64,000 nt of DNA, from NCBI RefSeq assembly GCF_000214415.1, contig NC_015562.1:1-64000 (forward strand), read 5' to 3'. Positions 7,992 through 60,898 of this stretch are shown one piece after another (position 1 is the first letter of the stretch; each line of letters begins with the position of its first letter). The translations under genes were made by a program, and so were the position numbers. A model generated the notes under the pieces. That model did no database searches, was not told the origin of the DNA, and worked only from the letters and a program-made list of their open reading frames with translations. This DNA comes from Methanotorris igneus Kol 5. GTDB lineage: Archaea > AGJL01 > Methanococci > Methanococcales > Methanococcaceae.

Positions 7992-8691
7992 GTTTATATC
8001 CTTGTTTTAATGGATGAGTAATTCAAACACGGAGACAGTGCAAAAAGAGTAATTTTAAGGACAGTGTTTCCATCCTTGTTTTAATGGATGAGTAATTCAA
8101 ACATCTATTGTTTTATACTTATGTTCATGGTCTTTAACCTGTTTCCATCCTTGTTTTAATGGATGAGTAATTCAAACAAGAGATATTCAAAGGAACAAGA
8201 TGGGAAGATTTCAGGTTTCCATCCTTGTTTTAATGGATGAGTAATTCAAACTATTAGAATATCTTCAAGGTATATAATGATAGAAAATTGTTTCCATCCT
8301 TGTTTTAATGGATGAGCAATTCAAACAAGAACTACTAAAACAAAGACTGTTATTAGAAGTTAGTTTCCATCCTTGTTTTAATGGATGAGGTATTCAAACT
8401 AAACTTGTTGAAATGACAACAAATACTACAATTGCGTTTCCATCCTTGTTTTAATGGATGAGGTATTCAAACACGATGGGATATTTTCATCAGAGCCGCT
8501 TTATTTAGGGTTTCCATCCTTGTTTTAATGGATGAGGTATTCAAACGTGGTTAGAGGAAAAATTAAATCCATTCTATGCAAGTTTCCATCCTTGTTTTAA
8601 TGGATGAGGTATTCAAACAAACAAAGTTGAAGAAAGTTATGGATTATTTAGATTGTTTCCATCCTTGTTTTAATGGATGAGGTATTCAAAC
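7992..8691 (-). CRISPR. CRISPR array, 10 repeats of 37 nt and 9 spacers
   Basis: Repeats start at 7992, 8066, 8141, 8215, 8290, 8363, 8436, 8510, 8582 and 8655. Spacers are 35-38 nt. On the plus strand the repeat begins GTTTCCATCCTTG and ends TTCAAAC. Repeat 1 is degenerate (GTTTATATCC), which marks the leader-distal end, so the leader is on the right and transcription is on the minus strand. The transcript repeat then ends in GGATGGAAAC, giving a normal 8-nt 5' handle, and has a CATCC/GGATG stem. Three repeat versions occur in order: repeats 1-4 have GAGTAATTC, repeat 5 GAGCAATTC, repeats 6-10 GAGGTATTC. No cas gene is in the window. Confidence 0.97.
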
Positions 8692-13572: not shown

Positions 13573-13716
13573 AATAGTTGTTTGCGTTAGACATTGGACA
13601 TTATCCTCAATAAATTTAGGGGGTTATTTGATTTATTTTAAAACTTAAATGTAATAATAACAACCGTTTAAAAATTTGTGATATATAATATCCAATAAAT
13701 TTCGCAAATAACTATA
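13573..13716. mobile_element. TATAGT-family MITE
   Basis: Short element with left terminus AATAGTTGTTTGCGTTAGAC and right terminus ATTTCGCAAATAACTATA, about 144 bp, no coding capacity. It ends 11 nt before the Shine-Dalgarno of the CBS protein gene and may carry that gene's promoter. Confidence 0.65.
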
Positions 13717-20994: not shown

Positions 20995-21196
20995 TATAGT
21001 TGTGTGCGCTAAGAGTTTAGGTGAAAACTCCTGCGGAGTTTTCGCTGCTCGAAGCTTCGCTTCGATGAACATAACTTCAATAAAATTTATGGGGTATTAA
21101 ACACTTAATTTTAAAATTTAAAAGGGAATAATAACTACTTAAAAAATTAATGGCAAAACCGAAGGTTTTGCCGTATATATTCCGCACACAACTATA
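20995..21196. mobile_element. TATAGT-family MITE between ferredoxin and geranylgeranyl reductase genes
   Basis: Left terminus TATAGTTGTGTGCG, right terminus CCGCACACAACTATA, 202 bp. Contains an AACTCCTGCGGAGTT hairpin, a GAAGCTTCGCTTC hairpin, and GGCAAAACCGAAGGTTTTGCC. It ends exactly at the ferredoxin stop codon (21197-21199 on the minus strand). Confidence 0.8.
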
Positions 21197-21389: not shown

Positions 21390-21528
21390 TATAGTTGTCT
21401 GCGAATTTTTTATAATTAAGTGTTCCTAACAAATTTTATAATAATATGGGGATTTTTTCTAAATTTCAATGATCGGGAAATTTTAACTAAACTTTAAGTG
21501 TCTATCACACTATACACAAACAACTATA
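21390..21528. mobile_element. TATAGT-family MITE upstream of the ferredoxin gene
   Basis: Left terminus TATAGTTGTCTGCGAA, right terminus ACACAAACAACTATA, 139 bp, no coding capacity and no internal GGCAAAAC hairpin. Confidence 0.75.
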
Positions 21529-25718: not shown

Positions 25719-25987
25719 TATAGTCGTTCTGCGAATGGGTATCATAAATCATTATTCAAATTTTAATTTGAGACTCGTTTAACAAAATTTTTATGTTTTA
25801 AATTTAAATTTGTAGAGGTCATTTATAGTCGTGTGCGTTAGAAATTGGAAATATGCTATTAATAAATTCTTAAAGATTTGTCCCTTGTTTCAAATTTTAA
25901 GGAAGAATAAAGATTATTTAAAAATTCATTAATGCGTAAATACGTTTAAGAAATTTCGCACACGACTATAATTGCAGAACGACTATA
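25719..25987. mobile_element. TATAGT-family MITE (outer element), interrupted by a second MITE
   Basis: Left terminus TATAGTCGTTCTGCGAA, right terminus TTGCAGAACGACTATA. Without the insert it is about 120 bp and aligns with the intact element at 52262-52382, which has the same CAACAAAATTTTAATTT and GTCATTTAATTG blocks. The inner element occupies 25824-25970. Confidence 0.8.
25824..25970. mobile_element. TATAGT-family MITE (inner, nested element)
   Basis: Termini TATAGTCGTGTGCGTTAGA and TTTCGCACACGACTATA, 147 bp. It splits the outer element at GTCATT-TA-ATTG: the TA is present on both sides of the insert, so the target duplication is TA. Confidence 0.85.
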
Positions 25988-40379: not shown

Positions 40380-40491
40380 TATAGTCAGTGACAAAACTTT
40401 CTGAATTAAATAAGGAATATTCGACTACCTTCCATTAGGAAGGTAGTCATTTTTACCTTATTAATTTTAATACCTTTTGTCACTGACTATA
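40380..40491. mobile_element. MITE-like element with TATAGTCAGTGACAAAA termini
   Basis: Left TATAGTCAGTGACAAAACTT, right CCTTTTGTCACTGACTATA, 112 bp, with an ACTACCTTCC...GGAAGGTAGT hairpin in the centre. A truncated copy lies inside the composite at 14765-15082 and a right-end relic at 13083. It is preceded by a CTGCAACCTTCGGTTGCAG hairpin (40352-40370) and followed by a solitary TATAGT-family right terminus (TTCGCACACAACCATAT, 40514-40530). Confidence 0.75.
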
Positions 40492-45313: not shown

Positions 45314-46333
45314 TTGGTGTTGGTCATGAAAAAGATTTGTGTAATAGAAGGAGACGGAATAGGAAAAGAGGTTGTTCCAGCAGCGATTAAGGTTTTGGAT
45401 GAAGTTGGAGATTTTGAATATATCTATGCTGAGGCAGGATTGGAGTGTTTAAAAAAATATGGTGATGCCATTCCAGATGAAACCATAGAAAAAGCGAAAG
45501 AATGTGATGCAGTATTGTTTGGAGCCATAACTTCACCAAAACCAACCGAATATAAAGGAAAGTATAGAAGTCCAATATTAACATTGAGAAAAGAGCTAAA
45601 TCTATACGCAAATGTAAGGCCAATTAATGATTTTAAAAATATTGATTTGGTTATTATAAGGGAAAATACCGAGGATGTTTATGTTGGGAGAGAGTATTAT
45701 GATGAAGAGAAAGAAATTGCCATTGCAGAGAGGGTTATTTCAAAAAAGGGAAGCGAGAGAATAATAAAATTTGCGTTTGAATATGCAATAAACAACAATA
45801 GAAAAAAGGTCTCCTGCATACATAAGGCAAATGTTTTAAGAATTACTGATGGGCTTTTTTTAAGGATTTTTAATGAAATTGGAGAAAAATATAAAGATAA
45901 GATAGATTACGATGATTACTTAGTTGATGCAACTGCAATGTATTTAGTAAAGAGCCCAGAGATGTTTGACGTTATTGTGACAACCAACTTGTTTGGAGAT
46001 ATCTTATCTGATGAGGCATCTGCATTGATTGGAGGCTTAGGATTAGCTCCATCAGCAAACATTGGGGATGAATATGGATTATTTGAGCCAGTTCATGGTT
46101 CTGCCCCAGATATTGCAGGGAAAGGAATAGCAAATCCAATCGCCACTATCCTAAGTGCTGCAATGATGCTTGATTACTTTGGAATGAAAGAGAAAGGGAA
46201 TAAAATAAGGAACGCTGTTAAGAGGGTTTTAGAAAAAGGGAAAGTAACCCCTGATTTGGGAGGGAACTTAAAGACCAGCGAGGTTGTTGATGAGATTATT
46301 AAGGAATTGAGGGGTTATAGTCGTGTGCGTTAG
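45314..46333 (+). CDS. aksF: Homoisocitrate-type dehydrogenase (AksF) with repeat-altered C terminus
   Basis: Isocitrate/isopropylmalate dehydrogenase family, 339 aa or slightly less. AksF oxidises homoisocitrate and longer homologues on the way to 2-oxosuberate and coenzyme B. I prefer AksF to LeuB because of GAITSPKPTEYKGKYRSPIL in the substrate loop. Other motifs are IRENTEDVYVGRE, CIHKANVLRITDG and EPVHGSAPDIAGKGIANP. The ATG at 45326 (MKKICVIEGDG) is probably the true start, after a GGTGTTGGT-like site. The last five residues (YSRVR) and the TAG stop come from a MITE; the original 3' end is displaced to 46585-46614. Confidence 0.8.
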   Translation: MVLVMKKICVIEGDGIGKEVVPAAIKVLDEVGDFEYIYAEAGLECLKKYGDAIPDETIEKAKECDAVLFGAITSPKPTEYKGKYRSPILTLRKELNLYANVRPINDFKNIDLVIIRENTEDVYVGREYYDEEKEIAIAERVISKKGSERIIKFAFEYAINNNRKKVSCIHKANVLRITDGLFLRIFNEIGEKYKDKIDYDDYLVDATAMYLVKSPEMFDVIVTTNLFGDILSDEASALIGGLGLAPSANIGDEYGLFEPVHGSAPDIAGKGIANPIATILSAAMMLDYFGMKEKGNKIRNAVKRVLEKGKVTPDLGGNLKTSEVVDEIIKELRGYSRVR

Positions 46334-46514
46334 AGTTTGGGATATGCTGTTGATAAATTCTTAAAGATTTATGCCTTATTTCAAATTTTAAGAAAGAATA
46401 AAGACCATTTGAAAATTCATTAATGTATATATAAGTTTAAAAATCCACTGCAACCTTCGGTTGCAGGGAAGTTGAATAATCGTAGATTATTCAACTATTC
46501 CGCACACGACTATA
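46316..46514. mobile_element. TATAGT-family MITE inserted at the aksF 3' end
   Basis: Termini TATAGTCGTGTGCGTTAG and TTCCGCACACGACTATA, 199 bp. Carries CTGCAACCTTCGGTTGCAG and GTTGAATAATC...GATTATTCAAC hairpins. Its left terminus is read in frame by aksF and gives the stop codon. Confidence 0.85.
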
Positions 46515-50323: not shown

Positions 50324-50590
50324 TATAGTCGTTCTACAAAATACGGCACTATTTACAATTTCGAACCGAAGGTTCGAGCAGTGTCCACTGCAACCTATGG
50401 TTGCAGGGAAGTTGAATAACGTAGTTATTCAACTAAATCTTTGATTTCGCCTAATCGAACCGTAAGGTTCGAGCAGCGAAAACTCCGCAGGAGTTTTCGC
50501 CTAATAAAATTTCAATTTTGAGTAAGTTTAACAAAACTCCAATTTAAATTAGAGTTATGTTAACTGTCATTTAATTGTAGAACGACTATA
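50324..50590. mobile_element. Composite TATAGT-family MITE (TTCTACAAA subfamily)
   Basis: Termini TATAGTCGTTCTACAAA and TTGTAGAACGACTATA, 267 bp. The right 100 nt match the compact element at 52262-52382 (ATTTAAATTAGAGTTATG, GTCATTTAATTG). The left part holds additional hairpins: GAACCGAAGGTTC, CTGCAACCTATGGTTGCAG, GTTGAATAACGTAG and AAACTCCGCAGGAGTTTT. Confidence 0.75.
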
Positions 50591-51892: not shown

Positions 51893-52071
51893 TATAGTCG
51901 TGTGCGAAATATATTACGGCAAAACCTTTAGGTTTTGCCATTAATTTTTTAACTTATTTGTGCATTAATGAATTTTAAATAATCATTATCCTTCATTAAA
52001 ATTTAGGATGGTTATATAATCCTTAAAAATTTATCGACAGCATATCCCAAACTCTAACGCACACGACTATA
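51893..52071. mobile_element. TATAGT-family MITE
   Basis: Termini TATAGTCGTGTGCGAAATA and CTAACGCACACGACTATA, 179 bp, with a GGCAAAACC...GGTTTTGCC hairpin. Part of the gene-free region between selD and the aminotransferase gene (51784-52596). Confidence 0.85.
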
Positions 52072-52261: not shown

Positions 52262-52382
52262 TATAGTCGTTCTACAAAATACAGCATCGCCCAATCTCAA
52301 AATTTCAATTTTAGGTAATTCAACAAAATTTTAATTTAAATTAGAGTTATGCTAACTGTCATTTAATTGTAGAACGACTATA
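52262..52382. mobile_element. TATAGT-family MITE, compact intact copy (TTCTACAAA subfamily)
   Basis: Termini TATAGTCGTTCTACAAA and TTGTAGAACGACTATA, 121 bp, no internal hairpin cluster. It serves as the uninterrupted reference for the nested element at 25719-25987 and for the right part of 50324-50590. A further solitary right terminus (GCAAACGACTATA) ends near 52514. Confidence 0.85.
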
Positions 52383-55231: not shown

Positions 55232-55402
55232 ATTTTTGGGGTCTGTCCAATATGGGTATTGGTGAGTAAATACCCATATTGGACTTGGGCGTCATCAGCC
55301 ACACAAGGGTGTCTCTGCCCCTGTCGTGGACATAAAAACCTAACGGTTTTTAAGTTCTCGTCGCTTCGCTCCGAGATGACCCCGAGCTCCACCCATCTAT
55401 CT
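55232..55402 (-). ncRNA. Candidate structured small RNA
   Basis: This is the only clearly GC-rich non-coding stretch in the window. A minus-strand TATA box (TATATTTATATA, 55422-55433) would start transcription near 55400. The RNA has a closing GGGGUC/GACCCC pairing (55378-55383 with 55238-55243), a hairpin of 16 perfect base pairs with an 8-nt loop (55245-55260 with 55269-55284), an AAAAACC/GGTTTTT hairpin with a GTTA loop, a CTCG/CGAG stem around GAGCGAAGCGA, and ACAC/GTGT. In AT-rich hyperthermophiles GC-rich intergenic islands are usually structured RNAs. It is not a tRNA, and I see no SRP or RNase P signature. Confidence 0.5.
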
Positions 55403-55499
55403 TTTTATCTTTATAAAGTCCTATATAAATATATCGAAAACTCATAAACACACATATCATCACAAATACTCACAAAAAACTAAACAGTTTCAAACGGGA

Positions 55500-55759
55500 A
55501 CGTTAGGAGAATGACTATAATTGCAAAGTCATGCTATCTTGTATAAAAATTATAGTCGCTCTACAATTATAGTCATGTGCAGAAGACATACGGCAAAACC
55601 TAAAGGTTTTGCCGTTAATTTAATGAAGAAGTAAGGCAAACAACCATAAACTACCTTAAAATTGAAATTTTATTAGGCGAAAACTCCTGCGGAATTTTCG
55701 CTGCTCGAACCTTCGGTTCGAAGTTGTAAATAGTGCCGTAATAATCTAAGGTGAAATAC
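55500..55759. repeat. Jumble of TATAGT-family ends and hairpins
   Basis: Partial termini TATAGTCGCTCTACAATTAT, TATAGTCATGTGCAGAAG and GGCAAACAACCATAA, a GGCAAAACC...GGTTTTGCC hairpin, AAACTCCTGCGGAATTTT and GAACCTTCGGTTCGAA. No complete element can be delimited. The stretch ends at the Shine-Dalgarno of the next gene. Confidence 0.5.
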
Positions 55760-60776: not shown

Positions 60777-60898
60777 TATAGTTGTTTGCCTTACTAATGA
60801 ACGAAATCTCCATTAAATTATAGGGGATGATTAACCTTTATTTGGAATATTAAATGGCAAAACAAAGTTTTGCCGTATAAAATTGGCAAACAACTATA
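60777..60898 (+). mobile_element. TATAGT-family MITE (GTTTGCC subfamily)
   Basis: Termini TATAGTTGTTTGCC and GGCAAACAACTATA, 122 bp, with a GGCAAAACAAAGTTTTGCC hairpin. It begins 9 nt after the previous element. Together with a solitary right end (GCAAACGACTATA, about 60992-61004) it fills the gap between herA and the AK6 gene. Confidence 0.8.

Follow-up and report, generated by a model that had tools for sequence, protein, structure and literature searches.

Nested MITEs with TA target-site duplication in Methanotorris igneus Kol 5, apparently left by a lost IS630-type transposon

Described systems and the elements of Methanotorris igneus

RUP of Streptococcus pneumoniae is a 107-bp non-coding element present in about 108 copies, with a TA target and IS630-like ends, and it is often inserted within or close to other mobile elements (PMC2229807). 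The elements described here were studied in the first 64,000 bases (the window, bases 1-64000) of the single 1,854,197-bp contig of the thermophilic, methanogenic archaeon Methanotorris igneus Kol 5. They resemble the RUP/IS630-Spn1 system in being non-coding, in their TA target and IS630-like ends, and in their insertion into mobile elements, but differ in being archaeal and in having no IS630 partner detectable in the host; unlike RUP, they also comprise several subfamilies that coexist and are nested within one another, and only 6-8 of their terminal bases equal those of known IS630 elements. With ISY100 and other IS630/Tc1-mariner elements they share insertion at TA with duplication of the TA and an occasional one-base loss at one side, whereas ISY100 is autonomous and the present elements are non-coding (PMC2170065). 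Archaeal MITE-like elements without an autonomous partner are likewise short, multi-copy orphans with inverted repeats (PMC3852290). The Sulfolobus elements SM1-SM4 are also short and multi-copy and carry inverted repeats; however, Sulfolobus solfataricus MITEs number 25 to 44 copies per family, compared with 285 sites for one terminus pattern alone in M. igneus (PMC10969869). The system is therefore of a known kind, notable for its copy number, nesting and missing helper, while the repeated use of the same internal TA and the presence or absence of hairpin cassettes between near-identical MITEs are new. A literature search found no paper mentioning both Methanotorris igneus and MITE.

In the reading favored here, with a probability of about 0.88, both elements of a nested pair at 25719-25987 are MITEs once moved by a now-undetectable IS630 of the TATAGT-ended clade. 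Elements with the terminal inverted repeats (TIRs) TAGTCG...CGACTA would have been cut and pasted into TA by an IS630/Tc1-mariner-type DDE transposase, with duplication of the TA, and the inner GTGTGCG element would have inserted after the outer TTCTGC element, at its most favorable TA (ATT-TA-ATT). The autonomous helper would have been an archaeal IS630 acting in trans on AT-rich palindromic TA sites, and would have been lost after the amplification of the MITEs, a fragment of one such IS630 surviving in the sister species.

Anatomy of the nested pair

At 25719-25987, one short non-coding mobile element has landed inside another. The outer MITE, of the TTCT[GA]C family, is 269 bp long and has TATAGTCGTTCTGC TIRs, with ends reading TATAGTCGTTCTGC...GCAGAACGACTATA; within it lies a 147-bp MITE of the GTGTGCG family (25824-25970; TATAGTCGTGTGCG...CGCACACGACTATA) that has about 40 relatives genome-wide, the best at 93% identity. 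The open reading frame list contains no frame of at least 100 aa in the interval. The two TA copies occupy 25824-25825 (GTCATT|TA) and 25969-25970 (TA|ATTG), and the filled site reads GTCATT-TA-[TAGTCG...CGACTA]-TA-ATTG, compared with GTCATT-TA-ATTG in the free copies of the outer family.

The initial annotation had described a GTGTGCG element inside a TTCTGC-ended element, and its coordinates, termini and nesting proved exact to the base; the TA target-site duplication that it proposed is likewise borne out, as a filled site contains, relative to an empty one, the insert and one additional TA. Its intact counterpart, the 121-bp free copy at 52262-52382 (hotspot TA at 52364-52365), does show the empty site, GTCATTTAATTG, but represents a close sibling subfamily (TTCTAC, not TTCTGC). 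The same GTCATTTAATTG is found in the copy at 50324-50590, where the hotspot is empty and about 146 bp of hairpin cassettes are inserted elsewhere, and, with minor variants, in about 20 further free copies. In line with its statement that the window lacks a transposase gene, neither of the two DDE families searched (PF13358 and PF01609) maps there.

Family size and distribution

Inverted terminal-repeat pairs with at least 13/14 identity occur nine times in the 64-kb window and not once in 40 first-order shuffles, so the pairs in the window are not attributable to chance. Sampled DNA of the host yielded 86 non-redundant pairs (TIR identity at least 12/14), mostly CGTGTGCG (32), CGTTCTAC (12), TGTTTGCC (11) and TGTGTGCG (11), enclosing elements of 92-376 bp, typically 110-300 bp. 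Exact ATAGTYGTNTGC termini number 285 in the 1.85-Mb genome (149 + 136), against 0 + 0 for the same pattern reversed; the pattern TATAGTYG alone is too short for copy counts (524 versus 281 in the reversed control). The outer TTCT[GA]C family accounts for 60 ends at three mismatches or fewer (control, 2), and the MITE families together exceed 100 copies by a wide margin. Short, dispersed, multi-copy, bounded by TIRs and devoid of a transposase gene, these elements show features by which MITEs are recognized.

Further members of the GTGTGCG family lie at 51893-52071 (179 bp) and 46316-46514 (199 bp), the latter overlapping the 3' end of the ORF at 45314-46333. This isopropylmalate dehydrogenase-like ORF terminates, stop codon included, within the left end of the MITE (46316-46333). 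A GTGTGCG-type element at 20995-21196 (202 bp) and a TTTGCG-type element at 13573-13716 (144 bp) both correspond to orthologous places in the sister genome that contain no element. TTTGCC-type (60777-60898, 122 bp) and TCTGCG-type (21390-21528, 139 bp) MITEs are also present, as is a perfect-ended TATAGTCAGTGACA element of 112 bp (40380-40491) inside a GTGTGCG-family hairpin region.

Elsewhere, ATAGTYGTNTGC termini number 53 in the sister genome (the only other genome of the genus compared), 10 in one genome from another genus of the family, and 0 to 9 in the remaining genomes of the order; amplification seems to have occurred mainly within this genus. Plasmids searched with the MITE gave no match. 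In viral contigs, 91 stretches match a terminal pattern, and these matches are probably due to chance because no inverted pair was found among the 80 loci kept.

Target-site duplication and target preference

For the empty-site analysis, the flanks of each element were joined with 0-4 bases of TATA retained, and gapless matches were sought in the host's own DNA and that of the sister genome. Gapless empty sites were obtained for 0, 5, 9, 6 and 1 elements when 0, 1, 2, 3 and 4 bases, respectively, were kept. The comparison with empty sites that the initial annotation had proposed thus fits best when one TA is kept, and in six of the nine elements of this class the empty copies have wholly or mostly TA, the rest having TG, CA or TT. 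Clear TA cases include the inner element at GTCATT-TA-ATTG of the outer element at 25719-25987, a TTTGCC element within a GTGTGCG element that has an intact relative in the sister genome, and one insertion into a hairpin region, with 95% identical flanks. The empty copies that deviate, by TG, CA or TT or by a one-base difference at the site, count against the favored reading. At one insertion, in a 163-bp repeat, a single T is missing from one side, and some products of the ISY100 transposase in vitro also lack one base at one side (PMC2170065). Intergenic regions of the sister genome that are orthologous to those around the elements at 20995, 13573 and 25719 contain none of the three and are too diverged at the base level for the duplication to be read, which is why the empty sites used are mostly paralogous. 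Nested copies provide clean empty sites, and target choice can be read from them by sequence alone.

The consensus of the insertion sites of 86 elements is the palindrome AAT-TA-ATT. Relative to a background of all TAs in the window, flanking positions 1, 2 and 3 deviate with chi2 values of 22.6, 46.6 and 37.3 (3 df), and position 4 shows no deviation (1.0).

It could be supposed that a Y1 transposase moved these repeats, as REP-like or IS200/IS605-type palindromes, with the TA forming part of the element; their termini are indeed inverted repeats, and hairpin cassettes occur in many copies. IS200/IS605 elements, however, make no target duplication. Here the TA is duplicated (2 bp), exactly one TA is retained at most gapless junctions, as in IS630/Tc1-mariner insertions, and the ends are shared with elements encoding a DDE_3 transposase, all of which makes a Y1-based origin very improbable.

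Repeated use of one internal TA

A second outer-family copy, at 864829-865165, has been hit by a GTGTGCG element at an internal TA identical in position to the one used in the copy at 25719-25987. Because the two inner elements are opposite in orientation, with the GTGTGCGTTAGAAATTGG end coming first at 25824 and last at 865148, the two nested copies are best read as independent insertions. In the free copy at 52262-52382, the hotspot ATT|TA|ATT is the top-scoring internal TA, and only 2% of the TAs in the window score as high, on a scoring matrix to which the few hotspot insertions themselves contribute slightly. Both composites could instead descend from one insertion event, the composite at 25719 having been copied as a unit; they share the internal position, and inner as well as outer parts are strongly diverged in both. 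This explanation is unlikely, given the opposite orientations and given that repeated use of so high-scoring a TA is to be expected. The nesting site is thus best read as a target hotspot used at least twice, and the target preference appears sufficient to explain its repeated use. A third case is the outer-family end at 55551-55653, which has a GTGTGC-type insert at the same TA; as its far junction is rearranged, it constitutes partial evidence. At 300994, an element is inserted in an outer-family copy at a different internal TA.

The probable IS630 link and the missing helper

No IS630-type DDE_3 domain (PF13358) was found in the host genome by profile search, and a search of that genome with an IS630 transposase protein from the order returned nothing at E values up to 10. 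Because no transposase of the family was detected in the host, the elements are classified as IS630 derivatives, not as autonomous members. At the threshold used, PF13358 is confined to two other genomes of the order, whose IS630 elements have TATAGTCAAGCACATAATT and TATAGTGTTTTTC termini, matched by inverted right ends. Pfam confirmed DDE_3 in the IS630 elements of the order and detected an HTH domain in one of them. In the elements at L051:901-2015 and L052:885-2039, the helix-turn-helix and DDE parts apparently occupy separate frames; this could resemble IS630 members with a programmed frameshift, or could be due to decay.

TATAGT stands at both ends, at the expected distance, in 24 of the 43 IS630 relatives, mostly archaeal, examined in a genome collection. 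The sister genome retains, at a contig edge, an IS630 transposase fragment of 52 aa that is 75% identical to the L052 transposase and has the end TATAGTTGAATTTC, as well as an element of about 90 bp that is bounded by TATAGTTG on either side, still contains the final 20 transposase codons and resembles a MITE formed through an internal deletion. Agreement between the MITE ends and known IS630 ends, including the sister TATAGTTG, extends over the outer 6-8 bases only, and a full-length IS630 ending in TATAGTYGTNTGC was not encountered. The proposal of an IS630/Tc1-mariner type transposase acting on non-autonomous elements is supported, since TATAGT ends are common to the IS630/DDE_3 elements of the order; the accompanying suggestion that a DDE transposase with matching ends be sought was answered in part, by TATAGT-ended IS630 elements in the order and an IS630 remnant with TATAGTTG ends in the sister genome, but by none detected in the host. 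We infer that the helper belonged to this IS630 clade and acted in trans, and that the MITE population is now immobile or extinct. TATAGT, as a terminal signature of an archaeal IS630 clade, is useful for finding the helpers of other orphan archaeal MITEs.

Of the two DDE families searched in the host, DDE_Tnp_1 is represented by two insertion sequences. A 1.0-kb IS (PF01609) exists in 16 copies of equal score and ORF length (G000:C1, for example 315945-316298 and 15 more places, loci L248-L261). Eight aligned copies share the end sequences GAGGTTGTCGAAAAAT and are flanked by a ~9-bp target duplication; the uniformity of the copies and their ends indicates that this IS was probably active recently. 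The second, encoding 339 aa, has three copies with TAGGACTTTCGCAA ends, one of which (L075:1-1500, genome ~663.2-664.5 kb) interrupts a GTGTGC-type MITE and so adds a further level of nesting. Recent activity of the 16-copy IS, in a host without a detectable IS630 transposase, might suggest that the MITEs are moved by such a still-active DDE transposase and that their IS630 likeness is coincidental. Both ISs were rejected as movers, being poor candidates because their ends are unrelated to those of the MITEs: neither GAGGTTGTCGAAAAAT, with its ~9-bp duplication, nor TAGGACTTTCGCAA matches TATAGT or a 2-bp TA duplication, and this alternative is hardly credible.

Aligned GTGTGCG copies have a median pairwise identity of 80%, compared with the eight aligned 1.0-kb IS copies that have the same ends, a divergence consistent with an old MITE population. 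The population is apparently dead, left by a lost IS630-type transposon; in this archaeal genome, a DNA transposon would have died out while its non-autonomous passengers persist as a common intergenic feature.

Hairpin cassettes and other repeats

Near-identical MITEs differ in whether they carry hairpin cassettes of 33-51 nt, which sit at fixed positions and show no clear target duplication; examples in the window lie at 46448-46500 and 50361-50469. The MITEs at L072:11904-12047 (144 bp) and L073:8047-8241 (195 bp) differ by a 51-nt palindromic insert alone, and those at L078:14106-14252 and L081:10493-10706 are 97% identical over aligned bases and differ by two hairpins of 33-35 nt. Cassettes of the GGCAAAA type number 52 in 330 kb of host DNA and 0 in 353 kb from the sister genome, and the cassettes appear to be specific to this species. 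It is tentatively proposed, as one possibility that is rather doubtful, that they form another class of mobile units, of very small size, hosted by MITEs, entering and leaving at fixed positions; they may move by themselves, be lost by slippage or spread by gene conversion. If they are mobile, IS630-type MITEs of an archaeon would harbor a nested REP-like system.

An Rfam search of the window returned CRISPR repeats only, in an array of nine repeats at 8066-8691 on the minus strand (family CRISPR-DR7). The GC-rich 163-bp repeat (55271-55433, minus strand), which had no Rfam match at gathering scores, occurs as about 13 full copies in the genome, with related sequences in other Methanococcales, and is possibly a structured RNA or another mobile unit. 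In three of its copies a MITE is inserted, each time at the same position.
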